Assembly: GCA_003725745.1 (NCBI GenBank)
Contig: RHDP01000001.1
Span: forward strand, 6,427,501-6,491,500
Origin: Streptomyces sp. I6
Lineage (GTDB): Bacteria; Actinomycetota; Actinomycetes; Streptomycetales; Streptomycetaceae
Direction: 5' to 3'
DNA: 64,000 nt
Shown here: positions 36,553-56,197 of the stretch, piece by piece
How positions within the stretch are numbered: the first letter of the stretch is position 1
Layout of the letters: the number at the start of each line of letters is the position of its first letter
Made by a program: the position numbers and the translations under genes
Notes under the pieces: model-generated
The model's input: the letters and a program-made list of their open reading frames with translations, nothing else
Database searches by the model: none
Told to the model about the DNA's origin: nothing

Positions 36553-36557
36553 CCGCC

Positions 36558-39021: not shown

Positions 39022-41304
39022 CACGAACACGCGCCGAAGCGGCAGCGCGACGACCACTGCCGCCGCGACAGCCACCTCGACGACCACTGCCGCCGCGACT
39101 GCCACCGCGCCTGCCGCGGCTCGGGACCGGTCCTGTGAGGAACTGGCCCGCCTTCTGCGCCCCGCGCTCACCCGGCACGGGATCCGCCCCCGGCCCGACA
39201 TCGCGGCCCTCGGCGTACGCGATGCCTTCGCCCCGCCCTCGGCGGGCGAGGCCGGCCGGTACGCGTCCCGCCCGGTTCCCCGACCGGGCGACGGTCGTCC
39301 GGCGGCCGGATCGGGCTACCCCGGCGACGGTGCGGCCGGGGCGCTGGGCCATCGTGGCTCCGCGGCCGGACCGGTGGACCGCCCCGACTCCGTGGACGCA
39401 CCGGACGGCCCCGGCGACTCCATGGCCGGACCCGCGGACCATCGTCACACCTCGGCCCGATCGAACGGCCCCGGCGACTCCGCGGTCGAACCCGCCGAGT
39501 CCGCTGCGCCCGTCGAGCCCGTCGAGCCCGCCGTGCCCGTCCGGCTCTACGGCCACCACGCCGTCGTCGGGCCCCTCGCCCCCGGCAGCGGTGGGGCGTC
39601 CCGCCCCTGCGCACACTGCCTGGAGCGGCGCTGGCAGGCCGTGCGGTCGGTGGCGCTGCGGGAGGCGCTGGAGCTGGGTTCCGGCACCCGGTCCGCGGGC
39701 CGGCTCCCCTATGTCACCCCGTTCACCGCGGACGCGCTCGCCGCCCTGATCGCCGCCCTCGTCGCCGGTGCCGGCCCCCGCGCCGGGGCGTTCCCTCCCG
39801 TGCACCTGGTGGACCTGCGGTCCCTGACGGTACGTCACTACCCGCTGGTGCCCGACCCGGAGTGCCCGCGCTGCGCCGTCCCCGAGGAGGACACCCCGGA
39901 GGCCGCCGCGCTCACCCTACGGCCCGCGCCCAAGGTCCGGCCGGGCAGCTTCCGGGTGCGCGACATCGGCGACTACGGCCTGGCCGTCGAGCCGTTCGCC
40001 AACCCGCTGTGCGGCGCGCTCGGCCCGTCCGTCGTCCACGACGTGTCGTCCACATCCACCTCGGCCGCCATCGGCTGCTTCTCCATGCGGTCCGGCGACT
40101 ACCTCCGCGAGACCTTCTGGGGCGGCCACGCCGACAGCTTCGGGCACAGCGTCCGCATCGGCGTACTGGAGGGGCTGGAACGCTACGCGGGGATGCGCCC
40201 GCGTGCCAAACGCGCCCGGGTGACGGACTCGCTCGACGCGCTCCGGGCCCGCGGCGCCCACACCGTCGACCCTCGCGTGTGCGGGCTCTACTCCGACGAC
40301 TTCCACCGGGCCAACCCCAGGGTCAGGCCGTTCACCCCGGACCGCGAGATCCCCTGGGTGTGGGGCTGGTCGCTGCGCGACGAGCGCCCCGTCCTGGTGC
40401 CCGAGGTGCTGACGTACTACCACGCCCCCGGCCTGGAGAACCGGTTCGTGCAGGAGAGCTCCAACGGCTGCGCGTCCGGCGGCTGCCTGGAGGAGGCCGT
40501 CTACTTCGGGCTGATGGAGGTCGTCGAGCGGGACGCCTTCCTCCTCGCCTGGTACGGACGGGCCCGCCTCCCCGAACTCGACCCCCGCACCAGCACCCGC
40601 CCGGCCACCCGCCACATGGTGGAACGGCTGGAGATGTACGGCTACGAGGCCCGGTTCTTCGACACCCGCATCTCCTTCCCCGTCCCCGTCGTGACCGGCG
40701 TCGCCGTACGGCACGACGGCGGTCCGGGCCGGATGTGCTTCGGCGCGGGCGCCGGTCTCGACCCCGAGGCCGCGCTCGCCGGAGCGCTGTGCGAGATCGC
40801 CACCGACGCCGTCAACCTCCAGGGCCGCACCGAGCGCGACGAGCCCCGGCTGCGTGCCATGACCGAGGACTTCCACCGGGTCACCGCCCTGCACGACCAT
40901 CCGCTCGCCTACGGCATCCCGGAGATGGGCCGCCACGCCCACTTCCTCCTCGGCGAGCCCGGCGAACCGCGACCGCCCCTCGTCCCCATGGCCGAGCGGT
41001 ACGGCGACGGCACGGTGCCCCCGTCTCCGGCGACCTGCGCGACGATCTCGTCCGCTGCCTCGAAGCCGTCACCGGCGCCGGCTTCGACGTGGTCGTCGTG
41101 GACCAGACGATGCCCGAGCAGCGCGGGCTCGGGCTGCGCACCGTCAGCGTGCTCGTACCCGGCCTGCTGCCCATCGACTTCGGCTGGAGCAGGCAGCGCG
41201 CCCTCGGCATGCCCAGGCTGCGCACCGCCCTGCGGGAGGCCGGTCTGCGCGAGCGCGACCTGACCCCCGCCGACCTCAACCCCGCGCCGCACCCCTTCCC
41301 CTGA
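39011..41304 (+). CDS. YcaO cyclodehydratase 1 (one frameshift)
   Basis: This ATP-dependent enzyme turns Cys, Ser and Thr of the core into azolines. After a low-complexity N-terminal tail (about residues 1-175), CAHCLERRW and CPRCAVPEE form a likely zinc site. The YcaO domain shows IGVLEGLERYAG, ESSNGCASGGCLEEAVYFGLMEVVERDAFLLAWYGR and GAGAGLDPEAALAGALCEIATD, including the paired Glu that bind Mg-ATP. The C-terminus ends NPAPHPFP, a variant of the PxPxP tail needed for cyclisation. A missing C in CCCCC 41018-41022 breaks the frame; restored length 764. It overlaps the previous gene by 11 bp. Confidence 0.92.
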
Positions 41305-41364: not shown

Positions 41365-42963
41365 ATGGGGTACGCCCATGACTACGCCGCCGCGATCATG
41401 CGGCGGGGCAGGGTCCCGATGCCGCCGGCCGACTTCGTCCCGAACTGGGCCGACGGCCCGCGGAAGACCAAGTTCTACCCGGGAGCCGACACCGTGCCGC
41501 TGCCCGGTCACACCGTGCCGCCCGGGGCGACCGTCGGCCGCGGACTCGCCCCGGATGACGACGGCCCGGAGCGCCCCTTCGACCTGCCCGCCCTGTCCGG
41601 GATGCTGCGGGACTCCTACGGGCTCACGGGGCGCCGGCTCGGCGTCCAGGCCAACACCGACCTCGACGCGCTGCCGTTCCACCCGCTCGCCAACTGGTCC
41701 CGGGGCACCGCGTCCGGCGGGGGCCTCTACCCCGTAAGCATCTACTGGGTGTCCGGGCCCAGCGGCCCCCTGCCACCCGGAGTGCACTACTACGCGACCC
41801 GGCACCACGCCATGCAGCGCCTGCTCTCCGGCGACGTCTCCGGAGAGGTGCGCGAGGCCCTCGGCGACCCGGCCTCCGCCGGCGAACGAGCCGCCGGCAC
41901 CGACCAGTTCCTCGTGCTCGGGGTCAAGTACTGGCAGAACGCGTTCAAGTACAACTCGTTCTCCTTCCACGCCGTCACCATGGACGTCGGCACCGTGGTG
42001 CAGACCTGGCGGATCTGGGCCAGATCGCAGGGCCTGTGCGTCGAGCCGCTGATGTGGTTCGACGAGCGCAGACTCGCCCGGCTGCTGGGGATCCGCACCG
42101 AGGACGAGGGCGTATTCGCCGTCGTGCCGCTGCGCTGGCGGGGCGCGCGGGCCACGTCCGCGCCGCCGGCGGACACCGCCACCGTCCGCCGCCGCGACGC
42201 CGAACGCTCGCGCACCGTCCTCACCTTCGACGCGGTGCGGAGGATGCAGGAGGCCACGCAGGAGCACGCCGCCCGGCGGCCCGCCGCGGCGGCGCTCGCC
42301 CCGGCCGCCGCTCCCGTCCCCGACCCCGGGCTGCCGACCGTCCCGCTGCCCGCGCCGCTGCCCATGGACACCGATGTGCGCACCGCGCTGCGCGACCGCC
42401 GCAGCAGCTTCGGCCGGTTCGACGCCCGGCGGCCCCTGAGCGCCGAGCACCTGGCGTCCTGCCTGGCCGCCGCGGCCACCGGCGCGTCCCTCGGCGGCGA
42501 CACGGGCACCGGCACCACCCGGATCGCGGGCCTGTACGCCTTCGTCGGCCACACCGAGGGCATCGCCCCCGGCGCCTACTCCTACGACCCGGCGGCACAC
42601 GCCCTGCGGCTGGTGAAGGCAGGGCCGCCCGGCACGTTCCTGCAGAAGAACTACTTCCTGGCCAACTACAACCTGGAGCAGACCGGCGCGGTCCTCGTAC
42701 CGACCGTCCGCACCGGCGCGGTGCTCGACACCGTCGGCGACCGCGGCTACCGGATCGTGAACGCCGTGGTCGGCGCCGTCTCGCAGAGCGTCTACACCGC
42801 CGCCTCCGCCCTCGGCGTCGGCTGCGGCGTGGCACTCGGTTTCGACAACGTCTCGTACACCGAGGAGCTCGGCCTCGACCGCACCGGAGAGGCACCCCTG
42901 CTGATCATGATGCTCGGCAGTGAACGGCCCGCGCCCGCCGACTTCCGCCACGAGATCGCCTGA
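41365..42963 (+). CDS. SagB-type FMN-dependent azoline dehydrogenase
   Basis: The 532-residue intact enzyme oxidises azolines to azoles with FMN. It has a duplicated nitroreductase layout: an N-terminal half with PFHPLANWSRGTASGGGLYPVSIYWVS and KYWQNAFKYNSFSFHAVTMDVGTVVQTWRIWA, and a catalytic-type C-terminal half with RDRRSSFGRFDARRPLSAEHLASCLAAAATG, RIAGLYAFVGHTEGIAPGAYSYDP and LGSERPAPADF. The Lys-Tyr pair of SagB-type sites appears as QKNYFLANYNLEQTGAV. AAAAGGAG precedes ATG 41365. Length matches thiopeptide and LAP dehydrogenases. Confidence 0.93.
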   Translation: MGYAHDYAAAIMRRGRVPMPPADFVPNWADGPRKTKFYPGADTVPLPGHTVPPGATVGRGLAPDDDGPERPFDLPALSGMLRDSYGLTGRRLGVQANTDLDALPFHPLANWSRGTASGGGLYPVSIYWVSGPSGPLPPGVHYYATRHHAMQRLLSGDVSGEVREALGDPASAGERAAGTDQFLVLGVKYWQNAFKYNSFSFHAVTMDVGTVVQTWRIWARSQGLCVEPLMWFDERRLARLLGIRTEDEGVFAVVPLRWRGARATSAPPADTATVRRRDAERSRTVLTFDAVRRMQEATQEHAARRPAAAALAPAAAPVPDPGLPTVPLPAPLPMDTDVRTALRDRRSSFGRFDARRPLSAEHLASCLAAAATGASLGGDTGTGTTRIAGLYAFVGHTEGIAPGAYSYDPAAHALRLVKAGPPGTFLQKNYFLANYNLEQTGAVLVPTVRTGAVLDTVGDRGYRIVNAVVGAVSQSVYTAASALGVGCGVALGFDNVSYTEELGLDRTGEAPLLIMMLGSERPAPADFRHEIA

Positions 42964-42966
42964 ACC

Positions 42967-45900
42967 ATGAGAACCGGAAGGGTGGGGACCACGATGCCGT
43001 TCATGCTCCGCGTCGCCGGGCTTCCCGTCGACAGCGTCCGCGAACTCCGCTGCCCGGCGAGCCGCCGCTGGGCCGACGACGTGCTCGCCGAGACCGAGCG
43101 GCTGGCCGCCGAGGGCACCCGCCTCGGCGACCTGCTGCACGGGCTGATCGGCCACAACGAGGACGATTCGTCCCGGCGGAGGCTGCTCGCCCTGCGCCGC
43201 GCGGTGTTCAACAACCGGCTGCCCGGCGAGGCGAACACCGCTCTCGCGCACGTCCGCGCGCACGACCGGCACACCGCGGCGATGCTGGAACGGTGGCTCA
43301 CCGACCGCCGCGCCCTCGACGCCCGCCGGGCGGAGGGCGCCGCGCTGGTGGCCCTTGAGACCGGCCGTGCCCGGGCCGCCCTCGGCCGGCTGGCGGGGGA
43401 GCCGCGGCTGCGCGGCGGCCTGCTGCTGGCGTCCCCCACGCTCGACGCCCAACTGGACGAGTGGCGGGGGCGGCTGGCCGCCGGCCCGGACCGTACGCCC
43501 GGCAAGCGGGACCGCAAGATCGAGCGCTCCCTGCTGGCGTACCTGTACCGCACGGCGTGCAAGACGAGCCCGTTCAGCACGTTCACCGGTGTGGTGCCGG
43601 GGGAGTTCACGGCGGGGGAGTGCGCGCCGGAGGATGCCGGGCCGTCGGAGGCTGCGGTGGGGGAGGCCGCGGTGGGGGAGGCCGCGGTGGAGGAGGTCGC
43701 GGTGGGGGAGGCCGCCGATACGGGCGGGACGGGGCACGGCGGGACCCCGGCCGGCGGAGGCGAGGCCCCGGGCACTGGCACTGGTCCGGTGCCGGGTGGC
43801 GGGCCGGAGGCGCGGCCCGGCGGTGGCCGGGACCACCGTGGCGGGTGGGACGCGGTCCCGCGCACCGGCGGTCACGCTGTGCGCACCGGTCACGGTCGGA
43901 CCTCTGGTGCCTCTGGTGCCCCTGGCGCCCCTGGCGCCCGCGACATCCGCGAGGCCCTGGCCGTCCGTGTCGACGACGAGTGGACCGGCCGTGCCCGGCT
44001 CAACGTGGCCGCGCTCGGCCGGCTCGCCGAGGCGGTCACCGGTGACGCCGCCCGGCGCGCCGATCTGCCCCTAGCCCTCGCGCCGGGCTGGGGCCGCGTC
44101 GACGACCGGGTGCGCTATGTGCGCCGCTGGGTCACCTCCGGCGACGAGGACACCGCCGTCACCTTCGACGCCGTCCGGGACCGGTTGTTCTTCCTGCGCA
44201 GCAGCGGCACCCTGGAGCGGCTCATCGCCCTGCTGGAGGACCGCGGCAGTCTCCGCCACGCGGATCTCGCCGCATGGCTCGCCGCCGACCGCGGAGCCAC
44301 CGAGGCCGAGGCGGAGCAGTATCTGACCGCCCTGCTCGACATCGGCATGGTCCAGGTCCCGGGACTGCGCACCGCAGTCCACGACACCGATCCGCTGCGC
44401 GCCTTCCAGGACTCGCTGCGTGCCCTCGGCAGCGGCTGGGCCAACGGACTCGCCGATCGCCTCGACGCGCCGCTGTCCCGCGTGGACCGCTTCGCCGCCG
44501 CGACGCCCCGCGACCGCCGCGAGCTGCTCGACGGCCTGCGGGACGACCTGCACGGTGTGCAGGCGGAACTGGGCGCCGGGCGCGGCAGGGTGCCGCAGAC
44601 GGTGCTGTACGAGGACGTCGCCGCGGGCCGGGAAGTGCGGCTGCCGCTCGACGCCTGGACGCGCTCGGTGGCCGGATCGCTGAGCGCGGTCGAACGCGTC
44701 CTGCCCGCCTTCGACCTCACCCTGCCGCAGCGCATCACCTTCAAGGGGTTCTTCCTCGCCCGCCACGGCCGCGGCGGACGCTGCGACGACCTGCTGAAAC
44801 TCGTCCACGACTTCCACGAGGACTTCTTCGACCAGTACCTCTCGTTCACCTCCCGGCGAACCCCGTTCGATTCCGAGGGCCGGTACGTGCCGGAGGAGAA
44901 CTGGCTGGGCCTGCCCCAGCTCAAGGCTCTCGACACCGCCCGCCAGACGTTCGCCGAGGGGATGCGCACCCTGTGGGAGACCCGCGGCGACGGCGGGAAC
45001 TCCGGGGGCACTGGGGGTACTGGGGACGGTGGGGACGGTGGGGAACTCGTCGTCGGTGAGTCGCTGCTCGCCGAGGTCGCCGCCGAACTCGACCCGGTCA
45101 CGCCGTCGTTCGTCCCTCTGAGCCACCACGTCCAGCTGGCCGTCCCCCGCGGTGGTGAGCCGCTGGCGGTCCTCAACCGGTCCTACGGCGGAGTCTCGTT
45201 CCCGTTCAGCCGCTTCGCCGACTGCTTCGACGGCCTGGAGGAACGGCTGCTGCACCGCTCCGTCGAACTCTGCCCGGACGGAGCCGTCCTCGCCGAGGTC
45301 ACCGGCGGCCCGGTCACCAGCAACCTCAACCTCCACGGACGGCTGACCGAGTACGAGATCGTCTGCCCCGGTGAGAGCGCCACCCTGCCCGAGCCGTACA
45401 GCCTCCACCTCGACGATCTACATCTGGTGCACGACGAGGAAGGCGACCGGCTCGCCCTGCGGTCGGCCCGGCTCGGCCGCGAGGTCGTGCCCGTCTACCT
45501 CGGCTACCTCGTGCCGCTCGCCCTGCCGGAACTTCCCCGGACCCTGCTGCTGCTGTCGCCGAGCTCCATGTCCCCGCTGAACGTATGGGGCGGTGTGCCC
45601 GAGAGCGACCCCGTCGGCGGGGTCACCCGCAGACCCAGGGTCCGGCACGGCAGTGTCGTGCTGAGCCGGCGAAGCTGGAGCGCGCCCGCCTCCGCCCTGC
45701 CGCCGAACGGCAGGGGCCGGACGCAGGAGGACTGGTTCCTGGGCTGGCACTCCTTCCGGCGCGCACACCAGCTCCCCGACCGGGTCTTCGCCACCGTGAC
45801 GGACGGCGGGGCGCGCGGCGCGACCGGCGCCAAGCCGCAGTACGTCGACTTCGACAGCCCGCTGTCCCTCGCGGCGTTCGAGGCGACCCTCAGAACGGCG

Positions 45901-46035
45901 GAGGCCCGCGTGGTCTTCCGCGAGATGCTGCCCGACGAGGGCGGACTGCATGTGTCGTCCGCGCGGGGCCGCCATGTCGCCGAACTGGCCGTGGAGACCA
46001 CGGCCGTCCCCACCCGACCGAAGGGACGACGTTGA
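42967..46035 (+). CDS. LanB-type Ser/Thr glutamylating dehydratase, N-terminal-domain protein
   Basis: This 1022-residue protein belongs to the lantibiotic dehydratase N-terminal family, which uses glutamyl-tRNA to activate Ser or Thr side chains. Typical segments are FMLRVAGLPVDSVREL, RSLLAYLYRTACKTSPFSTFTGV, RITFKGFFLARHGRGGRCDDLLKLVHDFHEDFFDQY and EYEIVCPGESATLPEPYSLHLDDLHLVHDEEGDRLALRS. It carries a long low-complexity Gly/Ala insert near residues 215-325 that looks expanded by repeat slippage. ATG 42967 is 3 bp after the SagB stop; ATG 42994 is possible. The elimination half is a separate protein next door, as in goadsporin and thiopeptide clusters. Intact. Confidence 0.9.
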   Translation: MRTGRVGTTMPFMLRVAGLPVDSVRELRCPASRRWADDVLAETERLAAEGTRLGDLLHGLIGHNEDDSSRRRLLALRRAVFNNRLPGEANTALAHVRAHDRHTAAMLERWLTDRRALDARRAEGAALVALETGRARAALGRLAGEPRLRGGLLLASPTLDAQLDEWRGRLAAGPDRTPGKRDRKIERSLLAYLYRTACKTSPFSTFTGVVPGEFTAGECAPEDAGPSEAAVGEAAVGEAAVEEVAVGEAADTGGTGHGGTPAGGGEAPGTGTGPVPGGGPEARPGGGRDHRGGWDAVPRTGGHAVRTGHGRTSGASGAPGAPGARDIREALAVRVDDEWTGRARLNVAALGRLAEAVTGDAARRADLPLALAPGWGRVDDRVRYVRRWVTSGDEDTAVTFDAVRDRLFFLRSSGTLERLIALLEDRGSLRHADLAAWLAADRGATEAEAEQYLTALLDIGMVQVPGLRTAVHDTDPLRAFQDSLRALGSGWANGLADRLDAPLSRVDRFAAATPRDRRELLDGLRDDLHGVQAELGAGRGRVPQTVLYEDVAAGREVRLPLDAWTRSVAGSLSAVERVLPAFDLTLPQRITFKGFFLARHGRGGRCDDLLKLVHDFHEDFFDQYLSFTSRRTPFDSEGRYVPEENWLGLPQLKALDTARQTFAEGMRTLWETRGDGGNSGGTGGTGDGGDGGELVVGESLLAEVAAELDPVTPSFVPLSHHVQLAVPRGGEPLAVLNRSYGGVSFPFSRFADCFDGLEERLLHRSVELCPDGAVLAEVTGGPVTSNLNLHGRLTEYEIVCPGESATLPEPYSLHLDDLHLVHDEEGDRLALRSARLGREVVPVYLGYLVPLALPELPRTLLLLSPSSMSPLNVWGGVPESDPVGGVTRRPRVRHGSVVLSRRSWSAPASALPPNGRGRTQEDWFLGWHSFRRAHQLPDRVFATVTDGGARGATGAKPQYVDFDSPLSLAAFEATLRTAEARVVFREMLPDEGGLHVSSARGRHVAELAVETTAVPTRPKGRR

Positions 46036-47324
46036 CCACGACCGCCGCCGACAGCGCACAGCCCGCCCGCGGTTCCCGGAGCGCTTCCGCCCCCGGCTCC
46101 GGTGCCGGGCCTGCTTCCCTCCCCGGCTCCGGTGCCGGGCCTGCCTCCGCCGGCGGCCGGGAGGCCGGACCCTCCACGGCACCGGTCGGCGGCCCGGCAC
46201 CGGGCGACGACCCCGCGCCCGCCGCCCGGCCGGGCTCCGCCCCGGCCGTGGCCCACGACTGGCAGGCCACCCACGTCTTCTACGCCGCCAACCCCCGGCC
46301 CATGCTGCTCCAGTGCATCAGGCCCCTGGTGGCCGGTCTGGAGGAGGACGGGCTGATCTCCGGCTGGTTCTTCATCAACTACTGGCTGGAGGGGCCGCAC
46401 GTCCGGCTGCGGCTGAAGCCCTCCTCCCCGCACGCGGCGGCGGAGGTGCGGCGCCGCACCGAGGAGGCCGTCGACGCCTTCCTCGCCGAACGCCCCGCCC
46501 TCTACGAGGTCGACTCGGGCTTCCTCAACGACTTCTACAACACGCTGTTCGACATCGAGTTCCCCGGCGCGGAACGCGGCCACTACACCGACGCCCAGGG
46601 CCGGATGCGGCTGCGCCCCAACAACTCCCGCAGCGCGGAACCGTACGAGCCCGAGTACGGCAAGTACGGAGGCCCTGCGGGAGTAGCCCTCGCCGAATGG
46701 CACTTCCGCCACTCCAGCGACCTGGTCGTCGACGCCTTCCGCACCAAGAACCTGCATCTGCGCACGGTGCTGCTCGGCACGTCCGCGCAGCTGATGATGG
46801 TCATGTCCGGCACCTTCCTGCACGGGGACACCGAACTCGCCGACTACCTGGACAGCTACTACACCTTCTGGCACCGCGCCTTCCCCGGGACGGGCTTCAT
46901 CGGCAGCGAGGAGTACGACCGCAACTACGCCGCCATGGCGCCCTCGCTCGCCGGGCACTTCACCCGCGTCCGTGCCGCCACCCGCGACGGAGCACCGGGC
47001 CGGCTGCCCTCGTTCCTGGCCGGCTGGGCCGAGCACTGCGCCGAACTGCGCACCCGTGCCGAGAAACTGGCCACCGACGGCGACCTGGTGTTCCGCTCCT
47101 GGGACGGCGCGCGCGAGGAACGCGTCACCGACCCGGCGGCCGCACTCCCGCTGCTGCTCTCCCCGTACATGCACATGACCAACAACCGGCTGCACGTCAC
47201 CATCAGGGACGAGGCGTACCTCGCGCACGTCCTGAGCCGCGCCCTGCGCGAACCCGGACCCGGACGCGAACCCGGAGCCGGACCCGGACGCGGATCCGGA
47301 CCCGGACCCGGGGAGGCGAGGTGA
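46032..47324 (+). CDS. Thiopeptide-type elimination protein (SpaB_C family)
   Basis: The 430-residue product eliminates glutamate from glutamylated Ser/Thr to give dehydroalanine and dehydrobutyrine, or in thiopeptide systems builds the pyridine ring. The core motif is DWQATHVFYAANPRPMLLQCIRPLVAGLEEDGLISGWFFINYWLEGPHVRLRLKPS, then YEPEYGKYGGPAGVALAEWHFRHSSDLV and YMHMTNNRLHVTIRDEAYLAH, all standard for the family. The first 75 residues are a Pro/Ala/Gly tail. The start is TTG 46032, overlapping the previous stop as TTGA. Because it is the only protein of this kind here, the elimination role is more likely than cyclo-addition. Confidence 0.88.
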   Translation: MTTTAADSAQPARGSRSASAPGSGAGPASLPGSGAGPASAGGREAGPSTAPVGGPAPGDDPAPAARPGSAPAVAHDWQATHVFYAANPRPMLLQCIRPLVAGLEEDGLISGWFFINYWLEGPHVRLRLKPSSPHAAAEVRRRTEEAVDAFLAERPALYEVDSGFLNDFYNTLFDIEFPGAERGHYTDAQGRMRLRPNNSRSAEPYEPEYGKYGGPAGVALAEWHFRHSSDLVVDAFRTKNLHLRTVLLGTSAQLMMVMSGTFLHGDTELADYLDSYYTFWHRAFPGTGFIGSEEYDRNYAAMAPSLAGHFTRVRAATRDGAPGRLPSFLAGWAEHCAELRTRAEKLATDGDLVFRSWDGAREERVTDPAAALPLLLSPYMHMTNNRLHVTIRDEAYLAHVLSRALREPGPGREPGAGPGRGSGPGPGEAR

Positions 47325-48489
47325 CCGCCCCGGCCGTACCGGCGCGCTACCGTCCGGCGCTCCGCCCCGGGGTGCTCCTCAGCGACGCGCTGCTCCACGG
47401 GCCGGACGTCGTCCACCTGATCAGGAACACCGGGAGCGGGAAGTCGTTCAGGGTCGGCCCCGGGAACACTTCCTGATCTCCCGGATGGACGGCACCCGGA
47501 CCCTGGAGGAGATCGGAACCGACTACGCGGGGCAGTTCGGGCGGCGTCTCGGGGACTCCCACTGGCGGTCCCTGCTGGCGCTGCTCGGCTCCCGCGACCT
47601 CCTCGCGGGCCGCCCGGCGCCCGCGGCCGCACCGGAGGGCGAGGCCGCCGGAACCCCGGCCGGGACAGCCTCCCGCCCGGCGCCCGCGCCCGGCGCAGAA
47701 CCGCCCGCAGCAAGGCGGCTGCTGCGCGGCAGCGTCCGCCTCGTCGCGGACGCGGACGCGACCGCGACCCGGCTCCACCGCCTCGCCCGGCACCTGCTCT
47801 CCCCCGCCGTGCTGCTGCCGCTGCTGGCTCTGACCGCGGTCATGGAGACCACCCTGCTGCTGCGCCTGGGCGAACTCCTCGACGCCACCGCCGCCCTGTT
47901 CACCGCGCCGGCACTGCTTCTCGCGGTCGCCACGCTGCTGTGGCTGAGTACCGCACTGCACGAACTCGCCCACGGAGTCCTCGCACACCACCACGGCGGA
48001 CGGGTGTCCGAGATAGGGCTGCGCTGGCGCCTCCCCGTGGTCATCATGTACTGCACCGTGGACGACTTCCTCCATCTGCCCGGACGGCGGGGCAGAATCG
48101 CCACCGCCGCCGCGGGCGCCGCGATGAACCTGCTGTTCCTGCTGCCGTTCTTCGCCGTCTGGACACTCGCCCCGCTCGACCACACCACCCGCCAGGCGCT
48201 CGGGGCGCTCCTCCTGCTGGGCAGCGTGCAGGCGTTCGCCATGCTGCTCCCGCTGCCGCCCCTCGACGGGTACCGGATCGCCGCCCAGCTCCTGGGCGCC
48301 ACCGGACTCGCCGCCTCCACGGCCGCGTACCTGAGACTCGTGCTACGGCGCGAACCGGCCGCCGCCCGCTACCCCCGGCGCGCCCGGCGCGCCTACACCG
48401 CCTACGGAGCGGCGGTCGCACTGACCCTCGTCCTGCTCGCGTCCGCCGCGGCGGCCGTGTTCCACCACTACCTCACCACCGCGCCATGA
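47321..48489 (+). CDS. M50-type membrane zinc metalloprotease with PqqD-like N-terminus (one frameshift)
   Basis: This is a candidate leader peptidase or export-linked protease. The N-terminal 90 residues (LRPGVLLSDALLHGPDVVHL, REHFLISRMDGTRTLEEIGTDY) look like a PqqD-type peptide-binding module. The membrane part has the zinc site HELAHG near residue 213 within a hydrophobic helix and the second motif LPLPPLDGYRIAAQLLG, as in site-2-protease relatives. About six membrane segments. GTG 47321 overlaps the previous stop. The break at CCCC 47458-47461 ends the frame early; one added C gives 389 residues. Confidence 0.85.
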
Positions 48490-48530
48490 CGGCCCTCCGG
48501 CCGCGATCCGCACCCACGAAGGAGAGTTCC

Positions 48531-49462
48531 ATGCCCCCCACCGCCGGCCCGCAGGACGGCCCGGCCGTCGCCCTTGACGCCGTGCACAAGCGCTACGGCG
48601 CCGTGCAGGCCGTCGACGGCGTGTCACTGACCGTCCCCGCGGCGAGTTCTTCGGACTGCTCGGGCCCAACGGCGCCGGGAAGACGACCCTCGTGGAGATC
48701 ATGGAGGGTCAGCGGCGCGCGGACGCGGGCGCCGTCACCGTCCTCGGCCACAGCCCCTGGCCCAGGAACCCGGCGCTGCTGGCCCGCATCGGCGTCCAGA
48801 CCCAGTCGTCCGCGTTCTTCGTCCGGCTCACCGCCCGGGAGCATCTCCGTACGGTGGCCTCCCTGTACCGGGTGGACGGCACCGCCGCCGACAGCGCACT
48901 GGCCTCCGTCGGTCTCACCGAGCACGGCGGCACCCGGGTCGACGACCTCTCCGGGGGGCAGCGGCAGCGGCTCGCCATCGCCTCCGCCCTCGTCCACCGG
49001 CCCGAGCTGATCTTCCTCGACGAGCCGACCGCGGCCCTCGACCCGCAGGCCCGCAGAGCGCTGTGGCAGGTGCTGCGCGACCTCAAGGGCGCGGGCCGCA
49101 CCATCGTCTACACCACCCACCACCTCGACGAGGCGGAGGAGCTGTGCGACCGGGTGGCGATCCTCGTCGGCGGCCGGGTCGCCGCGCTGGACAGCCCGGG
49201 CCGGCTCATCGAGCAGGGCAGTCCCACCACGCGGCTGCTGGTGCCCGCCGAGCGGCTGGACCTGGAGACGGCCCGGGGTATCCCGGGTGTCGAACGCGCC
49301 ACCCTCGACGGCGACTCGGTCGTCCTGGAGACCCTCGACGCAGGCAGCGTGCTCGCCGCCGTCGACGCCCTCGCCGGACTCCGCGGCGTCCGCACCCGCA
49401 CCGCCGGACTGGAAGACGTCTACCTCCAGCTGACCGGCGCACCGGAGAACCCCCGCGCCTAG
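48531..49462 (+). CDS. ABC exporter ATPase (one frameshift)
   Basis: ATPase of the DrrA/CcmA-like group that probably exports the mature peptide and gives self-protection. The N-terminus reads AVALDAVHKRYGAVQAVDGVSLTV; after one added C in CCCC 48635-48638 it continues RGEFFGLLGPNGAGKTTLVEIMEG with Walker A. Then LSGGQRQRLAIASALVHRPELIFLDEPTAALDPQ and TTHHLDEAEELCDRVAIL complete it. GAAGGAG precedes ATG 48531; corrected length 310. It is followed by a hairpin and then the permease. Confidence 0.9.
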
Positions 49463-49650: not shown

Positions 49651-49870
49651 ATGCTCTCGCAGCACGCCCCGGCCGAGCCGCGCCCCACCAGCCGAGCCCG
49701 GCCCCGGTGCCGAGCCCGGCCCCGAGCCGCCGCCGGCACCGACCCGGCCCCGGCCCGCCGCCTCCCGCCACTCCGCCTCCACCGCCCAAGTCCCAGCCAC
49801 CGCCACCGCCTACCGCCACCGCCTACCGCCGGCGCCGAACGCCGGCCGACGAACCACGGAGACCCCCGCC

Positions 49871-50622
49871 ATGAGCGCCTACGCCGCGCTGACCACGGCC
49901 GGATACCGGGCCTACACCCGGGACCGGACCACGCTCTTCTTCACCTTCGCCTTCCCCCTGCTGTTCCTCGTCGTCTTCGGCCTGATCTTCAGCGGGCAGG
50001 AAGTCGAGCAGAGCGGCCGGCCGTACATCGACCACATCGCCCCCGGCGTCCTCGCCTGGGGTGTCGGCAACGCCGCCGTGTTCGGAGTCGCGTTCGTCCT
50101 GATGCAGTGGCGCCGCGACGACATCCTGCGCCTCATCCGGATGACGCCGACGCCCGTCTCCGCCGTCATCGCCTCCCGCTACGTGCTGGCGGTCGCCGTC
50201 GGCGTCGTCCAGTCCGTGCTGTTCGTCGCCGTGGCCATGCTGCCGTTCTTCGGGCTGGGCGTGACCGGGAGCTGGCCGCTGGCGCTGCCCGTGCTCGTCC
50301 TCGGCATCACGGCCTTCCTGATGCTGGGGTGATCGTCGGCTCGTACGCCAAGACTCCGGAGGCCGTCGCCGCGGTCGCCAACTGCCTGATGATCCCCATG
50401 GCGTTCCTGTCCGGCTCGTTCCTCCCGCTGGACATGATGCCGGACTGGATGCAGACCCTGTCGCGGATCCTGCCGCTGCGCTACCTCAACGACGGCGTCT
50501 CGGACGCGCTCACGGGCGGGAGCACCGGCGGAGTCCTCCTCGACTGCGGTGTGCTCGCCGGCTTCGCCGTGGTGCTCGGCGCCATCGCCGTCAGGACGTT
50601 CCGCTGGAGCGACTCGTCGTGA
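49871..50622 (+). CDS. ABC exporter permease (one frameshift)
   Basis: Partner of the ATPase, ABC-2 type, with six hydrophobic segments: LFFTFAFPLLFLVVFGLIF, APGVLAWGVGNAAVFGVAFVLM, VLAVAVGVVQSVLFVAVAMLPFFGL and others. The frame ends early at GGGG 50326-50329; one added G joins LGITAFLMLGVIVGSYAKTPEAVAAVANCLMIPMAFLSGSFLPLDMMPDWMQTLSRILPLRYLNDG, the conserved ABC-2 tail, and gives 250 residues. Its stop overlaps the GTG start of YcaO 2. It would move the modified peptide across the membrane. Confidence 0.9.
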
Positions 50623-52622
50623 CCACCGCCCCCACCGCCACCGCTGCCACCACCGCCGCCGCCACCTCCGCCCGGGCCGCCGCCGCGCCACCTCTGGGGC
50701 AGGCCACCACCCTCCTCCAGGACGCCCTCGCTGCCCGACGCACCGCACTCGGGGGCGCCGCCGTCCCCGCACCGCTCGTGGTTCCCCTCGGCGCCGCGGA
50801 CGTACTCGGCACCGGCGCCCCCGACCCGTACGCCGCCACCCGGCCCCGGGCCAACGTCCAGCTGACCGCCCGAGCCGTCCTCATCGGCCCCTGGGGCGGA
50901 ATCCGTGAAGCGGCGTGCGGGCAGTGCCTCGCCATGCGCTGGCAGCGACTGCGCAGCCGCTCCGAACGGGAGGCACTCGAACGGGGCCGCCCGCCGCACG
51001 GGGCCACGGCCTGGCCGGTGATCACCCCTTACGCCGTCGACGCGGTGTGGGCCGTCTACCGGGCCGCCCTGGGCGGACGGCTGTCCCCACCGGCCGAGGC
51101 CCCGGCCGACCGCTCACTTCCCCAGGTGACCCGGGTCGACCTGGGGACCCTCGCGACGGTGACCTTCCCCCTGCTCCCCGAACCCCTCTGCCCCGCCTGC
51201 GTCACGGCCGTCCCCGAGACCGCGGACGCCGCACCGGCCCGGCTGCGGCCCGCCCCCAAACCGGATCCCGGCCGCTACCGGCTGCGCCCGGCCTCCTCGT
51301 ACGACCTCCCCGAACAGGCGCTCGCCAACCCCGTGTGCGGGGCGCTCGGCGCCCGTACCTGGATCAACCCCGCCTCGACCACCACCGCCCCCGTCGCCGG
51401 GACCAACTTCGTCCGCGGTTACGCGGGCCTGAACGACGTGACCTGGAGCGGCCAGGCCAACAGCTACGCCGCCAGCCGCACGCTGGCCCAGCTGGAGGGC
51501 CTGGAACGCTACGCGGGCACCCACCGCCGCCGCGGCACCACGCCCGTGACGGCCTCGTACGACGATCTCGTCGCGGCGGGCACCCCCGTCGTCGACCCCG
51601 CGGCGCGCGGCCTCTACGCCCCGCAGACCTATGCGCACGACCCGCTCGTCAGCCCCTTCGACCCGGCCCGGGAGATCCCGTGGGTCTGGGGCCGTTCGCT
51701 GCGTGACGACCGGCCGGTGCTCGTCCCCGCCCGCCTCGCCCACTACAGCGCGGGAACCGACGCCGACAACTTCGTCTTCGAGTGCTCCAACGGCTGTGCG
51801 ACCGGCGGCAGTCCGGAGGAGGCGATCCTCTTCGCCCTGCTCGAGATCATCGAGCGCGACGCCTTCCTGCTGGCCTGGTACGGGCGCGCCCCGCTCACCG
51901 CGATCGACCTCCGCAGCTGCCGGCGCGCCTCGATCCGCGCCATGACCGACCGGGCGGCGCTGCACGGCTACGACGTCCTCGCCCACGACACCACCATGGA
52001 CCTCGCCGTGCCGGTGGTCACCGCGCTCGCCGTCCGCCGTGACGGCGGCCCCGGCACCCTGTCCTTCGCGGCCGCGGCCGGATTCGACCCCGAGGAGACC
52101 GTCGAGTCCGCGCTCTCGGAGGTGCTCACGTACATCCCGCACCTGCCGCACCAGGTGGCCGAGCGCCGAGGTGAACTCCTCGACATGGCCCGGGACTACT
52201 CCAAGGTGCTCCACCTGAAGGACCACGCCCAGCTGTTCGGCCTGCCCGAGATGGCGGTCCACGCGCGGGAGTTCCTGGAGCCGGTGGACGTGCTGCCGCT
52301 GGATGCCGCGTTCCGCGACTGGACGGACTCCCTGCGGCCGCGGACCGGCGACCTCCTCGACGATGTGCGCTTCCTGGTCCGGCGGATCGCCGACGCCGGC
52401 CTCGACGCCGTCGTCGTGGACCAGACGACCCCGGAGCAGCGGCGGTCGGGGCTGCACACGGTCGCCATGGTCGTCCCCGGCATCCTGCCGCTGGACTTCG
52501 GCTGGTCACGGCAGCGGGCCCTGCTGATGCCGCGGCTGCTGAGCGGGCTGCGCGACGCGGGACGGCGCCCGGACCTGCTGCCCGGACCGGAGGTCAAGGC
52601 CGTGCCGCATCCGTTCCCGTGA
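50619..52622 (+). CDS. YcaO cyclodehydratase 2
   Basis: This intact 667-residue paralogue of YcaO 1 has the same layout: zinc-type CGQCLAMRW and CPACVTAVPE, then LAQLEGLERYAGTHRRRG, ECSNGCATGGSPEEAILFALLEIIERDAFLLAWYGR and AAAAGFDPEETVESALSEVLTYI, and a C-terminal KAVPHPFP tail. The ATP-binding Glu pairs are kept, so it should be active. GTG 50619 overlaps the permease stop. Having two tail-bearing YcaO enzymes in one cluster suggests a split of labour, for example Cys versus Ser/Thr or different core positions, which is inference. Confidence 0.92.
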   Translation: MTTAPTATAATTAAATSARAAAAPPLGQATTLLQDALAARRTALGGAAVPAPLVVPLGAADVLGTGAPDPYAATRPRANVQLTARAVLIGPWGGIREAACGQCLAMRWQRLRSRSEREALERGRPPHGATAWPVITPYAVDAVWAVYRAALGGRLSPPAEAPADRSLPQVTRVDLGTLATVTFPLLPEPLCPACVTAVPETADAAPARLRPAPKPDPGRYRLRPASSYDLPEQALANPVCGALGARTWINPASTTTAPVAGTNFVRGYAGLNDVTWSGQANSYAASRTLAQLEGLERYAGTHRRRGTTPVTASYDDLVAAGTPVVDPAARGLYAPQTYAHDPLVSPFDPAREIPWVWGRSLRDDRPVLVPARLAHYSAGTDADNFVFECSNGCATGGSPEEAILFALLEIIERDAFLLAWYGRAPLTAIDLRSCRRASIRAMTDRAALHGYDVLAHDTTMDLAVPVVTALAVRRDGGPGTLSFAAAAGFDPEETVESALSEVLTYIPHLPHQVAERRGELLDMARDYSKVLHLKDHAQLFGLPEMAVHAREFLEPVDVLPLDAAFRDWTDSLRPRTGDLLDDVRFLVRRIADAGLDAVVVDQTTPEQRRSGLHTVAMVVPGILPLDFGWSRQRALLMPRLLSGLRDAGRRPDLLPGPEVKAVPHPFP

Positions 52623-52734: not shown

Positions 52735-52860
52735 AGTGGCGCCGGCCGAAGGGGAGTCGTGTGTGAAGTGGCGCCGTCCGAAGGGGCGTCCTGTGTGAAG
52801 TGGCGCCGTCCGAGAGGGTGTCCTGTGCGAAGTGGCGTCATCGGAAGTAGCGTCATCGGA
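52735..52860. repeat. 32-bp then 15-bp tandem repeats between YcaO 2 and the precursor
   Basis: Three 32-bp units start AGTGGCGCCG at 52735, 52767 and 52799. They are followed by 15-bp units AGTGGCGTCATCGGA (52831) and AGTAGCGTCATCGGA (52846). The 15-bp unit looks like a deleted form of the 32-bp one. The region lies between convergent genes; no coding role seen. Confidence 0.85.
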
Positions 52861-52928
52861 AGTGGTGCCGACCGCCCGCATGCCGACGGCCTCCCACCCG
52901 CGGAATCGCCCGCCGGGCGGGAGGCCGT

Positions 52929-52948
52929 GGCCCGTCCGGCGGACGGCC
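52929..52948 (-). terminator. Hairpin downstream of the precursor gene
   Basis: CCGTCC and GGACGG pair around a GGC loop 14 bp after the precursor stop, with GGC/GCC extension and one bulge. It probably ends the short precursor transcript. Confidence 0.5.
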
Positions 52949-52961
52949 TTCGCTCCCGTGA

Positions 52962-53201
52962 TCAGGCGCTGCAGGAGGTGGTGCTGGTGGTGCTGGAGCA
53001 GGTCGACGTGGAGGAGCACGACGTCGAACCGGCAAGGACGACCTCGGCGGCGTCCGAGTAGTCCGAGATCTCGAAGGTCTCGGACTCCAGCTCCAGGATC
53101 TCGTCGGCGAGTGTGGCGAGTTCGGGCTTCGGGTCATCTGCGTCTCCCTCGGGTGTGCGGGGCCGGCCGGCGGGTCCGGCGGTCTCCCTCGCTCGGGCCA
53201 T
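52962..53201 (-). CDS. RiPP precursor peptide with all-Ser/Thr/Cys core
   Basis: The 79-residue product has a leader of about 58 residues that becomes acidic and helical (LATLADEILELESETFEISDY near 29-48), the pattern of thiopeptide and azole-peptide leaders, then AAEVVLAG. Residues 59-79 contain 10 Ser, 7 Thr, 3 Cys (C62, C68, C77) and a final Ala; every residue but the last can be cyclised or dehydrated. The leader-core border (after LAG) is inferred. ATG 53201 has GAAAGG 13 bp upstream; an upstream ATG at 53333 adds an Arg-rich, non-leader-like tail. It faces the operon and ends near it. Confidence 0.88.
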   Translation of the reverse strand: MARARETAGPAGRPRTPEGDADDPKPELATLADEILELESETFEISDYSDAAEVVLAGSTSCSSTSTCSSTTSTTSCSA

Positions 53202-53236
53202 TGCAGCCGAACGGCCTTTCACCTCACCTCGGCTCT

Positions 53237-53268
53237 CGCTGACACTTCGCTGACACCCAGTGTCAGCG
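53237..53268. promoter_or_regulatory. Direct and inverted repeats in the divergent precursor/amidohydrolase promoter
   Basis: CGCTGACAC occurs at 53237 and 53248, an 11-bp step, and its inverse GTGTCAGCG at 53260, forming a perfect inverted repeat with a 3-nt gap. The 11-bp spacing and the GCTGACA heptamer, shared with 33684, fit a SARP operator. Confidence 0.6.
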
Positions 53269-53359: not shown

Positions 53360-54591
53360 TTGAACGCAGCAGAACTCCCGCGGGACGTCCTGAGGGACGC
53401 CACCGCGCTGTACGTCGACCTGCACGCCCATCCCGAGCTGTCGGGTGAGGAGGTCCGCACCGCCGGGGTACTCGCCGCCCGGCTCGAACGGGACGGCTGC
53501 ACCGTCACCCGCCGCGTCGGCGGGCACGGCGTCGTCGGTGTGCTCCGCAACGGCACGGGCCCCACGGTGATGGCCCGGGCCGAACTCGACGCGCTTCCGG
53601 TACGGGAACGCACCGGCCTGAAATACGCCAGCACCGTTCCCGGTGTCATGCACGCCTGCGGACACGATCTGCACACCGCGGCGGCCGCCGGCGCCGTCTC
53701 CCTCCTCGCCGGCACCCGCGACTCCTGGCGGGGCACCCTGGTACTCGTCGGACAGCCCGCGGAGGAGACCTTGAGCGGCGCCCGGGCGATGCTCGACGAC
53801 GGCCTCTACGACCGGTTCGGAACCCCGGACGCGGTGCTCGCGCAGCACTGCGCACCGCTTCCCGCCGGATGCGTCGCCCACGGGCAGGGCCCGCTGATGT
53901 CCGCCGGGGTCACGCTCGACGTGGTCGTCCACGGGCGCGGCGGGCACGCGGGCACCCCGCACCTGGCCGTCGACCCCGTGGTCACCGCCGCCGCCGTGGT
54001 GATGCGGCTCCAGACGGTGGTGTCGCGCGAGTCCGCGCCCGGCGAGCGGGTCGTGCTCACCGTCGGTTCACTGCACGCCGGGGACCGGGCCAACGTGATC
54101 CCCGCCGAAGCCCGGCTGTCCGTGTCCGTCAGGGCGTTCACGGACGCCGCCCTGGCCCGGGTGACCGAGGCAGTCCGGCGGGTCGTACGAGCCGAGTGCG
54201 CGGCCTCAGGCTGCGACCGCGAGCCGGAGATCACGGTCACTGCCGCCTCGCCTGTGCTGGAGACCCACCCGGAGACGGCTCACAAGGTGCGCCGCGCACA
54301 CGAGGAAGCCTTCGGGGCGCACCGGGTGACCGGCTGGCCCGGATCGACCGCCACCGAGGACTTCCCCCACTACGCCACGGGCGGGGTGCCGGTCGCCTAC
54401 TGGATGCTCGGCGCCACCGGCGTCCGGCAGTGGCGCGCGGCCGGCGGCGGTGGTGAACCGGTGCCCGCCAACCACACGGACACCTTCGCGCCCGACGTAC
54501 GCACCGCCCTCCCGGCCGGCATCACCGCGATGGCCACGGCCGCACGAAGTCTGCTGGGCACACCCGGCCGCAGGGCGGGCGCCCGCGATGA
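53360..54591 (+). CDS. M20-family amidohydrolase/peptidase of the RiPP locus
   Basis: A metal-dependent hydrolase of the IAA-amino-acid hydrolase group, with LHAHPELSGEE, the metal motif MHACGHDLHTAAAAG, GQPAEETLSGARAML, QHCAPLPAGCVAHGQGPLM and GSTATEDFPHYA. AAGGAG precedes TTG 53360. As read the frame runs to 54658 with a basic, non-family tail; one missing base near 54540-54588 would end it at TGA 54589-54591 (410 residues), overlapping the next ATG. It is divergent from the precursor under shared repeats, so it may trim the peptide or remove an amino acid or blocking group. Substrate unknown. Confidence 0.85.
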
Positions 54592-54845
54592 CCCCGTCCC
54601 GGCCGGACTACGTCGACGTCGTCGCCGTGCGCGACGACCGTTCGGCACCCGCGGGTGAGACCACCGTCATCCGGCTGCTGGGCCTGCTGCCCGGGCACTG
54701 GCCCTGCCTGCCCGAAGTCCGTGCGGACCGCATCCGGCTGCGGATCGCCCTGGACGCGGCCACCGATCCGCGCACGGTCAGCAGCGCCGTCAGCCGGGCA
54801 CTGGCCGACTCCGCGCTGCGTGGCTGGTCCCGCCGTCGGGACTGA
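54588..54845 (+). CDS. 85-residue protein coupled to the amidohydrolase, unknown
   Basis: I do not recognise the family. The product is soluble and starts MTPSRPDYVDVVAVRD, with VIRLLGLLPGHWPCLPEVRADRIRLRIALDAATDPRTVSSAVSRALADSALRGW, a compact alternating strand-helix pattern of about 70 residues. It contains one Cys. Overlap of its ATG with the likely true stop of the amidohydrolase suggests translational coupling. A role as a small partner or scaffold in peptide maturation is possible. The region 54846-55108 that follows holds 18-bp low-complexity repeats (GGAACGGCACCGGTGG type). Confidence 0.65.
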   Translation: MTPSRPDYVDVVAVRDDRSAPAGETTVIRLLGLLPGHWPCLPEVRADRIRLRIALDAATDPRTVSSAVSRALADSALRGWSRRRD

Positions 54846-55108: not shown

Positions 55109-56197
55109 TCACACCCAGCCGCGTTCCCGAGCCAGCAGCGCCGCATGGGCCCGGTTCACCGCACCCAGCTTCTGCATGATGTCCGCGACATGGCGCCGGT
55201 ACGTCCGCACCGACACACCCAGCTCCCGTGCTCCCACCTCGTCCTTGCCGGCCGAGCACATCGACAGCAGCACCCGCTGCTCGGTCCCGGTCAACCGCTT
55301 CTCCTCGCCCTCCGGCCCGGCCACGGCGGTCAGTTGCTCGGCCTGGGACCAGATCTGCTCGAACAGGGCGATGATGTTCGCCACCAACCCGTTGCTGCGG
55401 GCCAGCAGCGCGCCGCGTGCCGTGTTGCGCGGATCCACGGGCACCAGTGCTGTATGGCCGTCGTATACGAGGATCCGCTCGGATATGTTCTCCGCCACCC
55501 TGATCAGGGCGCCCTCCGCGACCAGTTCCCGCAGATAGCCCGCAGTGGGCGGATGGTCCAGGGCGGCCCGCAGCACGACGTTCCGGATACGCACACCTCG
55601 GCGCAGACAGCGCATGTCCAGTGGACGCGACCGGGCGATGTTCTCGGCCGACAACCTGGTGTACGGCTCTACCGAAAGGATCTCCTCACGGGCGAAGAAC
55701 GCCAGATCTTCGATGCGGTTGCGGATGTCGTCCAGCCCGTGCAACTGCTCGATGCCCTGCGACGCCATCAACTCGCCCTGCTCGGCCCGCAGACCCTGAA
55801 CGACGTGCCGGGCCTGAGTCACCCGCTGCAACTCCTGGTGCAGCGCGTGGAGCCGGGCGTCCATCAGCCGGGCCACCGCCACCTCGGGATCCGCCGGTGC
55901 GATACGCCCGTCTGCCCCCGTGGGGTGGATCAGCCCGAGCCGGCGCAGTCGCTCCAGGCAGTGCTCCGGATCCTGTTCGGGGCCCGATCCGATCTTGTCG
56001 GCGAGCGCACGCAGGTCCTCGATCGTGGTGTCCGGATGGCGCAGACAGTGCCGGTAGAGTTCCTCATCCGCGGCGGACACGCCGAGCACGGCCATCTCGT
56101 TCTCACGCAACGCGCCCTCGGTGTATGAGTTCGGTCCGCCGGGAAGAGGGTGACCCCCGGCTGCGTACCACCGAAGGTTATCCCGCATTCCAGGCAT
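55109..56197 (-). CDS. LuxR-type regulator with TrmB-like N-terminus
   Basis: The 362-residue protein has an N-terminal winged-helix-like part (LGVSAADEELYRHCLRHPDTTIEDLRALADKIGSGPEQDPEHCLERLRRLGLI), a central helical/PLD-like sensor part (FFAREEILSVEPYTRL, IRNVVLRAALD, ISERILVYDGHTALVPVDP), and a C-terminal LuxR helix-turn-helix (LSMCSAGKDEVGARELGVSVRTYRRHVADIMQKLGAVNRAHAALLARERGWV). Such regulators are frequent beside peptide biosynthesis clusters in Streptomyces. ATG 56197 is the longest start; ATG near 56094 (MAVLGVSAAD) may be the true one. It is convergent with the 85-residue gene, so it is the likely right edge of the cluster. Confidence 0.82.
   Translation of the reverse strand: MPGMRDNLRWYAAGGHPLPGGPNSYTEGALRENEMAVLGVSAADEELYRHCLRHPDTTIEDLRALADKIGSGPEQDPEHCLERLRRLGLIHPTGADGRIAPADPEVAVARLMDARLHALHQELQRVTQARHVVQGLRAEQGELMASQGIEQLHGLDDIRNRIEDLAFFAREEILSVEPYTRLSAENIARSRPLDMRCLRRGVRIRNVVLRAALDHPPTAGYLRELVAEGALIRVAENISERILVYDGHTALVPVDPRNTARGALLARSNGLVANIIALFEQIWSQAEQLTAVAGPEGEEKRLTGTEQRVLLSMCSAGKDEVGARELGVSVRTYRRHVADIMQKLGAVNRAHAALLARERGWV

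Follow-up and report, generated by a model that had tools for sequence, protein, structure and literature searches.

The window analyzed here, a stretch of 64,000 nucleotides from Streptomyces sp. I6, holds on its minus strand (52962..53201) a small gene that, with a probability of about 0.8 as judged from its sequence and setting, encodes the precursor of a linear RiPP bearing both azoles and dehydro-amino acids. The chemistry of the predicted product is likely of the goadsporin type, elaborated in this case with two cyclodehydratases. The unusual features of the system are a near-invariant core drawn only from Ser, Thr and Cys, and the pair of intact-type cyclodehydratases that accompanies it.

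The precursor peptide and its family

The reading frame at 52962..53201 translates into 79 amino acids ending in LELESETFEISDYSDAAEVVLAGSTSCSSTSTCSSTTSTTSCSA and a stop codon, and the 21 codons at 52965..53027 (minus strand) specify the core region, STSCSSTSTCSSTTSTTSCSA. The composition given for these last 21 residues in the initial annotation, namely 10 Ser, 7 Thr, 3 Cys and one Ala, is borne out by the translation. The peptide scores 49.5 bits (E 3.9e-13) against TIGR03892, above the curated 25-bit cut-off that delimits this precursor family, and 39.8 bits against NF033400 (cut-off 30). Both models carry the name “thiazolylpeptide-type bacteriocin” in NCBIfam and, like the window peptide, their members consist of a leader and a core rich in Ser, Thr and Cys; a Pfam scan of the precursor returned no match. 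The window peptide is therefore a member of a widespread precursor family that had already been modelled. To judge from these family scores and from the near-identical cores that stand beside the same enzyme gene in relatives, it is more than a chance open reading frame, and the proposal that it is a RiPP precursor is likewise supported by the two model scores and by linkage to the same enzyme genes. Coding-bias gene calls overlooked the precursor, as well as the frame-broken genes described below, and were set aside.

Within the searchable text of open papers, no described product was found for the window core, and fragments of the core do not occur in 5.39 million such papers. As far as this text extends, the earlier statement that no characterized product with this sequence is known holds.

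Although the translation does give the 79 residues first reported, this length is not conserved: of 14 aligned precursors of the type, the most divergent has 52 residues and the other 13 have 55-62. The conserved stretch ahead of the core, at 53028..53137 (minus strand), comprises the leader ELATLADEILELESETFEISDYSDAAEVVLAG and, at 53135-53137, the triplet corresponding to the start codon used in relatives. In this assembly, the ATG at 53137 that corresponds to that start opens an ORF (52853-53137) out of frame with the leader. The precursor of Streptomyces pacificus CWH03, which by the D2 cyclodehydratase discussed below is the nearest named relative among the matches listed (locus L003; 93%), aligns with the window peptide from CWH03 residue 3 onward. 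Owing to this match and to the out-of-frame start counterpart, the first 23 residues of the 79-residue reading are placed outside the conserved peptide, and the predicted length of the precursor is corrected to about 58 residues.

The biosynthetic gene cluster

Upstream of D2 on the plus strand, the genes are ordered ThiF-like protein, D1, SagB, LanB glutamylation protein, Lant_dehydr_C protein, M50 protease, ATPase and permease, with D2 itself last. The first of these (36549..39021; TIGR03882, TIGR03693 and PF02624) encodes a ThiF-like protein, the putative leader-binding partner, with a degenerate YcaO domain as its C-terminal part. It is followed by D1 (39011..41304), a fused YcaO cyclodehydratase whose matches to TIGR03604, TIGR03882 and PF02624 fall on two pieces in the window and which is intact in CWH03. 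A SagB-type dehydrogenase (41365..42963; TIGR03605 at 133 bits, PF00881), predicted to convert azolines to azoles, precedes the two proteins of a split LanB. The LanB glutamylation protein (42967..46035; PF04738 at 129.7 bits) matches PDB entries 6ec7 (147.5 bits) and 9jhq (39.7 bits; titled “Goadsporin biosynthetic protein”), which we take to be TbtB and GodF, respectively. Its partner (46038..47324; PF14028 at 142.6 bits) is the Lant_dehydr_C protein, assigned as a probable LanB elimination protein of the TbtC/GodG type on grounds given below.

The remainder of the plus-strand series is concerned with predicted maturation and export as well as with a further cyclization enzyme. An M50 metalloprotease with a HELAH motif (47321..48489; PF02163 at 33 bits, NF041824 at 66.5 bits against a cut-off of 300) is a candidate leader protease; in CWH03 the N-terminal part of this protein looks PqqD-like by eye, with no Pfam call for it. 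The ABC transporter ATPase (48486..49462), whose assignment is supported by the CWH03 copy, and an ABC-2 permease (49721..50622; PF01061) are followed by D2, the second fused YcaO cyclodehydratase (50619..52622; TIGR03604 at 304 bits, PF02624 at 272.8 bits, TruD 4bs9 at 77.9 bits), which contains the motifs ECSNGCATGG..EEA..E..ER and a PHPFP end. The precursor gene, on the opposite strand, is convergent with D2 and divergent from an M20 amidohydrolase/carboxypeptidase-like protein (53360..54658, plus strand; TIGR01891 at 272.9 bits, PF01546). A LuxR-type regulator lies beyond (55109..56197, minus strand; PF00196 at 25.9 bits), and its membership in the cluster is uncertain.

An azole-forming set (the YcaO fusions and SagB) and a dehydration set (the split LanB) thus adjoin the precursor, as had been claimed for it. 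The gene content has elements of several known groups. It pairs a YcaO cyclodehydratase with a leader-binding partner, as in LAP/TOMM clusters, and combines a split LanB with a cyclodehydratase and a dehydrogenase, as in thiopeptide/pyritide clusters, but no TbtD-type [4+2] pyridine synthase, as in the latter, is recognizable in it. A split LanB and YcaO enzymes without a pyridine synthase are also the mark of the goadsporin group, from which the window cluster departs in having more than a single cyclodehydratase.

Where the initial annotation referred to “both” YcaO proteins, the YcaO-domain proteins in fact number three: one is degenerate and two are of the intact type, D1 among the latter being frame-broken here. 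A PF02624 search of nine genomes recovers three YcaO genes from the cluster in every case, with the D1 of the window split into two pieces. Among ten D1 and ten D2 sequences aligned, E..ER is retained in all 20 and SNG in 19, with SSG in the D1 of locus L175; a C-terminal PxPxP is present in all 20, in 19 of them as PHPFP. A strict regular expression for the whole YcaO ATP motif matches 14 of the 20, and the other six are off by one or two residues. The degenerate protein, in all nine copies, has neither E..ER nor the C-terminal PxPxP. In CWH03, D1 and D2 share 42% identity, whereas they are 62% and 57% identical to their respective Micromonospora counterparts. As each is nearer its own counterpart, the split between D1 and D2 predates the divergence of these genera's copies.

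The DNA flanking the precursor contains several repeated elements. In the convergent gap with D2, an imperfect inverted repeat (52867..52947; 34-nt arms, 76% complementary) is possibly a terminator. A 32-bp unit is repeated about three times in tandem at 52735-52837, between the D2 stop codon and the precursor. On the other side, in the divergent precursor/M20 promoter (53236..53266), CTGACA repeats (at 53239 and 53250, with TGTCAG at 53261) appear operator-like. CTGACA is found in 47 of 66 precursor/M20 intergenic regions from relatives, and the spacings of CTGACA-like heptamers in these 66 regions cluster near 11, 21-23, 34 and 44 bases. The hexamers TGACAC/GTGTCA number 56 against 3.5 in base shuffles, occurring in 36 of the 66 regions and forming a palindrome in 13. 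Such phased repeats are typical of SARP operators. A fragment of an AfsR/SARP-like NB-ARC regulator (35281..36552, plus strand; PF00931, NF053617 at 135 bits against a cut-off of 1430) lies at the left edge of the cluster and may belong to it.

Distribution of the cluster and conservation of the core

A scan of an 84,980-species collection with D2 returned at least 77 loci. Among the matches listed, these are mostly from Streptomyces, with others from Micromonospora, Sphaerimonospora, Kitasatospora, Streptantibioticus and Actinacidiphila. Again among the matches listed, the permease is present in 74 of 77 loci, the ATPase and the M20 protein in 73 each, the M50 protease in 69, the LanB glutamylation and elimination proteins in 67 each, SagB in 66, and the LuxR-type regulator in 38. 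A D1 separate from D2 is present in 60 of the 77, a figure that counts separate D1 only, the D1 query also cross-matching D2. Ten loci are without an elimination gene; in nine, the sequence to the left of D2 extends for about 3 kb or less, and the tenth (L073) looks rearranged. The M20 gene is missing from L055, L056 and L074 despite room for it, and no match to it was found in L173, L175 and L177. Nine genes are collinear in ten compared clusters (CWH03, L131-L135, L140, L173, L175 and L177), which include Micromonospora and other families of the class; seven of these were read end to end, and the other three, L135, L140 and L177, are truncated on one side.

Among the matches listed, a strict motif identifies 77 precursor copies in 72 of the 77 D2 loci, and looser motifs add L069, with a shorter core, and L075, bringing the precursor to 74 of 77 loci. 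L022, which lies close to the end of a contig, L073 and L074 gave no precursor with either the strict or the looser motifs. The 77 copies, among the matches listed, have just 12 distinct 21-residue ends, of which 31 are identical to that of the window. Within this set, core positions 3, 5-11, 13, 15-19 and 21 are constant, the last being the invariant terminal Ala, and positions 1, 2, 4, 14 and 20 vary only by exchange among Ser, Thr and Cys. Two of the 77 copies (among the matches listed) have Ala at position 12, such that modification of every position would be unnecessary. In one Micromonospora copy (L055), extra residues are inserted ahead of the core end. In five further genomes (G092, G025, G279, G130 and G142), the core is CTSTSSTSTSSSTCSTTSCSA, with Cys at positions 1, 14 and 19 where the window core has it at 4, 10 and 19. 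Across members, Cys is seen at positions 1, 2, 4, 10, 14, 19 and 20.

This constancy extends to residues and not to codons. In 71 copies, Ser-Ser pairs with differing codon families (TCN versus AGY) amount to 23.6% in the core and 2.4% in the leader, and such switching at fixed Ser positions is better explained by selection acting on the residues than by recent spread of one sequence. Amino-acid difference is 5.1% in the core and 6.5% in the leader, and dN/dS is 0.60 and 0.19, respectively. The core dN/dS value is uninformative, since a switch between Ser codon families goes through a Thr or Cys codon, which artificially raises the number of non-synonymous changes. Cousin clusters from another actinobacterial family (L158, L160, L161 and L163-L167) have three or four precursor matches each, with cores that are almost wholly Ser, Thr and Cys and richer in Cys; one such precursor ends in TTSTSSTSTCSSCTSCTSCASF.

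Within the genus, 62 of 295 genomes encode a precursor over the TIGR03892 cut-off. In 43 of the 62, only a partial, front-end match to the pyridine synthase model NF045556 lies within 25 kb of the precursor, with odd coverage in G171 (2-100) and G176 (1-308). A match reaching the end of the model is found in 13, and none is near in seven, one genome falling in two classes. Among these seven, G003 has a TbtD-like stretch (tblastn, L141), and some have an elimination-type match on another contig. By this partial-model test, the cluster type is present in 43 of 295 genus genomes. The TIGR03892 model spans at least two cluster types. The TbtD-associated clusters L129 and L130 have a different precursor, ending in MGASSGSIGTSSSSSSTCSAC, and appear to represent another thiopeptide-type group under the same model. 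At wider taxonomic levels, a profile of 14 precursors at 1e-6 gives matches in 52 of 293 genomes from the order and in 15 of 394 from the class; the two samples overlap, and the counts include weaker cousins and partial matches.

Alternative assignments

The same precursor model and enzymes could be those of a classical thiopeptide, in which the core would be cyclized via a pyridine made from two Dha residues. TIGR03892 also covers thiopeptide-type clusters, split LanB, YcaO and SagB proteins are also encoded in thiopeptide clusters, and the Lant_dehydr_C protein not only matches NF045556 at 90.9 bits but has TbtD as its sole PDB match by sequence (5wa3; 21 bits, E 0.0015, front part). The NF045556 match is nevertheless partial, covering model positions 1-276 of 354, and far under the cut-off of 325. 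Moreover, in the 7 of 295 genus genomes where a protein does exceed this cut-off, a second, weaker and front-limited match accompanies the strong one each time. In a tree of 37 proteins, nine TbtD-type sequences are split with a support of 100/100 from 17 window-type, nine TbtC-type and two GodG-type sequences, subject to a warning from the tool of possible false joining of long branches, among them those leading to the window-type and TbtD-type sequences; the TbtC rows do not form a single group. The TbtC, TbtD and GodG labels in this comparison were assigned by model score and position, and the TbtD-type L129 and L130 lie below the model cut-off. Conserved columns, too, place the window protein on the side of the elimination enzymes. 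His329 and Glu342 are present in 17/17 window-type and 11/11 TbtC/GodG sequences, with Tyr and Arg in 9/9 of the TbtD type. Arg75 is kept in 17/17, 11/11 and 1/9 of these three sets, Glu156 in 17/17, 10/11 and 0/9, and Glu170 in 16/17, 11/11 and 0/9. Besides that of the cluster, the window genome has a single PF14028 gene, which belongs to a second LAP cluster; CWH03 likewise lacks a third gene of this family. Of the ten compared clusters, nine were searched with TbtD references, and none of the nine gave a separate match. On these comparisons, the Lant_dehydr_C protein is likely of the glutamate-elimination type (TbtC/GodG) and not a pyridine synthase. With no recognizable pyridine synthase in the cluster, the thiopeptide assignment is rejected as very improbable; the one weak PDB match to TbtD stands against this rejection.

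A second alternative is that the window peptide is the precursor of spongiicolazolicin or of a close analogue of known structure. Spongiicolazolicins A and B are LAPs of 29 and 28 residues, and the available text of PMC8838263 names a strain labelled CWH03 as their producer, the strain label shared by the nearest named relative of the window. Cleavage of the window precursor could indeed leave 29 or 28 residues, provided that AAEVVLAG or AEVVLAG is retained with the core. Both genomes, however, contain a second YcaO/LanB cluster (loci L109, at G000:C1:2372000-2391900, and L110) with four Gly/Ala-spaced precursors, one of which could likewise yield a 29-residue peptide on cleavage, and since 28-29 residues fits either cluster, product length is not decisive. 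The spongiicolazolicin pattern has been likened, in the portion of the literature available, to tripeptide blocks that each contain an unmodified residue (PMC11583998). A core of Ser, Thr and Cys only is ill-suited to such blocks, and because the Gly/Ala-spaced pattern fits them better, spongiicolazolicin is probably made by the second cluster. Identity with spongiicolazolicin is accordingly set aside as very unlikely. Both would be linear azole peptides of Streptomyces, with clusters and precursors that are probably different. There is also the matter of whether the cluster has decayed in this strain, such that no product is made here. Relative to CWH03, frame changes affect the start of the precursor, the ThiF-like protein (three frames, with the N-terminal part in other frames), D1 (two frames, changing at about 40975-41023), the M50 protease (two frames, near the gene start), the first part of the ATPase, and the permease (near 50326-50350). 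Protein identity to CWH03 is nonetheless high on both sides of most breaks (80%/86% for D1, 83%/98% for the permease and 77%/95% for the ATPase), the CWH03 cluster genes are open, and intact copies occur in relatives. The window assembly consists of two contigs with a completeness of only 87%, as would be expected from base errors spread over the assembly, and for this reason the frame changes are read as likelier to be assembly errors. Decay is thus considered unlikely, though the cluster in this strain may not be readable as intact.

Relationship to characterized systems

A chemical precedent for the proposed linear azole- and dehydro-amino acid-containing peptide is goadsporin, whose genes (GodA, GodD-GodH) likewise include a YcaO cyclodehydratase, an FMN dehydrogenase and a split LanB, and whose azoles and Dha lie in a linear chain, as proposed for the window product (Ozaki et al. 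2017, PMC5303826). The available text of that study describes a 19-residue core, one cyclodehydratase (GodD) and a cap added by the acetyltransferase GodH, and reports that glutamylation was unseen without the azole-forming enzymes (PMC5303826). In contrast, the window cluster encodes two intact-type cyclodehydratases and a degenerate one, and its core is made up only of Ser, Thr and Cys plus Ala. No GNAT acetyltransferase was found among the cluster proteins scanned, which were a subset of the ORFs.

Two D proteins also occur in the coryneazolisin clusters, which, compared here by their published description only, resemble the window cluster further in having lanthipeptide-like dehydratases, a highly conserved core rich in Cys, Ser and Thr, and no [4+2] enzyme (Cox et al. 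2015, PMC4603692). They differ in being from Corynebacterium, in pairing one discrete with one fused D protein, and in the presence of Ile within a core described as 10 Cys/Ser/Thr, one Ile, then 5-7 Cys/Ser/Thr (PMC4603692). No Ile occurs in any of the 77 cores of the window type among the matches listed, which places them outside this definition. The available text of the same survey attributes to thiopeptide clusters discrete C and D proteins and, at times, an extra fused cyclodehydratase, and the present clusters may be within its dataset (PMC4603692). Carnazolamide-type dehydrazoles likewise combine azoles and dehydro residues in one peptide, but, as far as the available text describes them, their dehydratase is a LanM-like DUF4135 protein and their leader is nitrile-hydratase-like, where the window has a split LanB (Pei et al. 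2023, PMC10676384).

Proposed pathway and significance

In the proposed pathway, the ThiF-like/degenerate YcaO protein would bind the leader, and D1 and D2 would then turn chosen Cys, Ser and Thr residues into azolines, possibly sharing this work by residue or by position. SagB would oxidize the azolines to azoles, and the LanB glutamylation and elimination proteins would dehydrate some or many of the remaining Ser and Thr residues to Dha and Dhb, leaving the peptide chain linear. Removal of the leader would fall to the M50 protease and export of the product to the ABC pair. The M20 hydrolase, where present, may trim the product, perhaps at the invariant C-terminal Ala. While Cys, Ser and Thr can all be cyclized, Cys is not dehydrated by LanB enzymes, and the Cys-tolerant core positions 1, 2, 4, 10, 14, 19 and 20 are for this reason the best candidates for azole sites. 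The calculated monoisotopic mass of the 21-residue core by itself is 1975.73 (1904.69 once the Ala is removed), falling to 1775.47 for a form with 10 azoles and to 1595.36 if 10 dehydrations are added, although the peptide may in reality be cleaved elsewhere.

A bolder extension of this scheme, which we consider doubtful, holds that two position-dividing cyclodehydratases would convert the core into a near end-to-end ribbon in which azoles alternate with dehydro residues and scarcely any ordinary side chains are left, and that a product so conserved among actinobacterial genera would act as a shared signal, a metal ligand or a housekeeping factor and not as a diversifying antibiotic. A presumed antibiotic would not ordinarily keep its core near-constant while the codons change, and this pattern hints at a target that does not vary. 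The pairing of two intact-type cyclodehydratases with a Ser/Thr/Cys-only core would, in addition, provide a clean test of how residues are chosen by ring-forming versus dehydrating enzymes. If the assignment as a linear azole- and dehydro-amino acid-containing RiPP is correct, the curated label of thiazolylpeptide-type bacteriocin is being applied to clusters in which the ring-forming enzyme is missing, and approximately one in seven of the Streptomyces species sampled (43/295) would encode an undescribed linear peptide.
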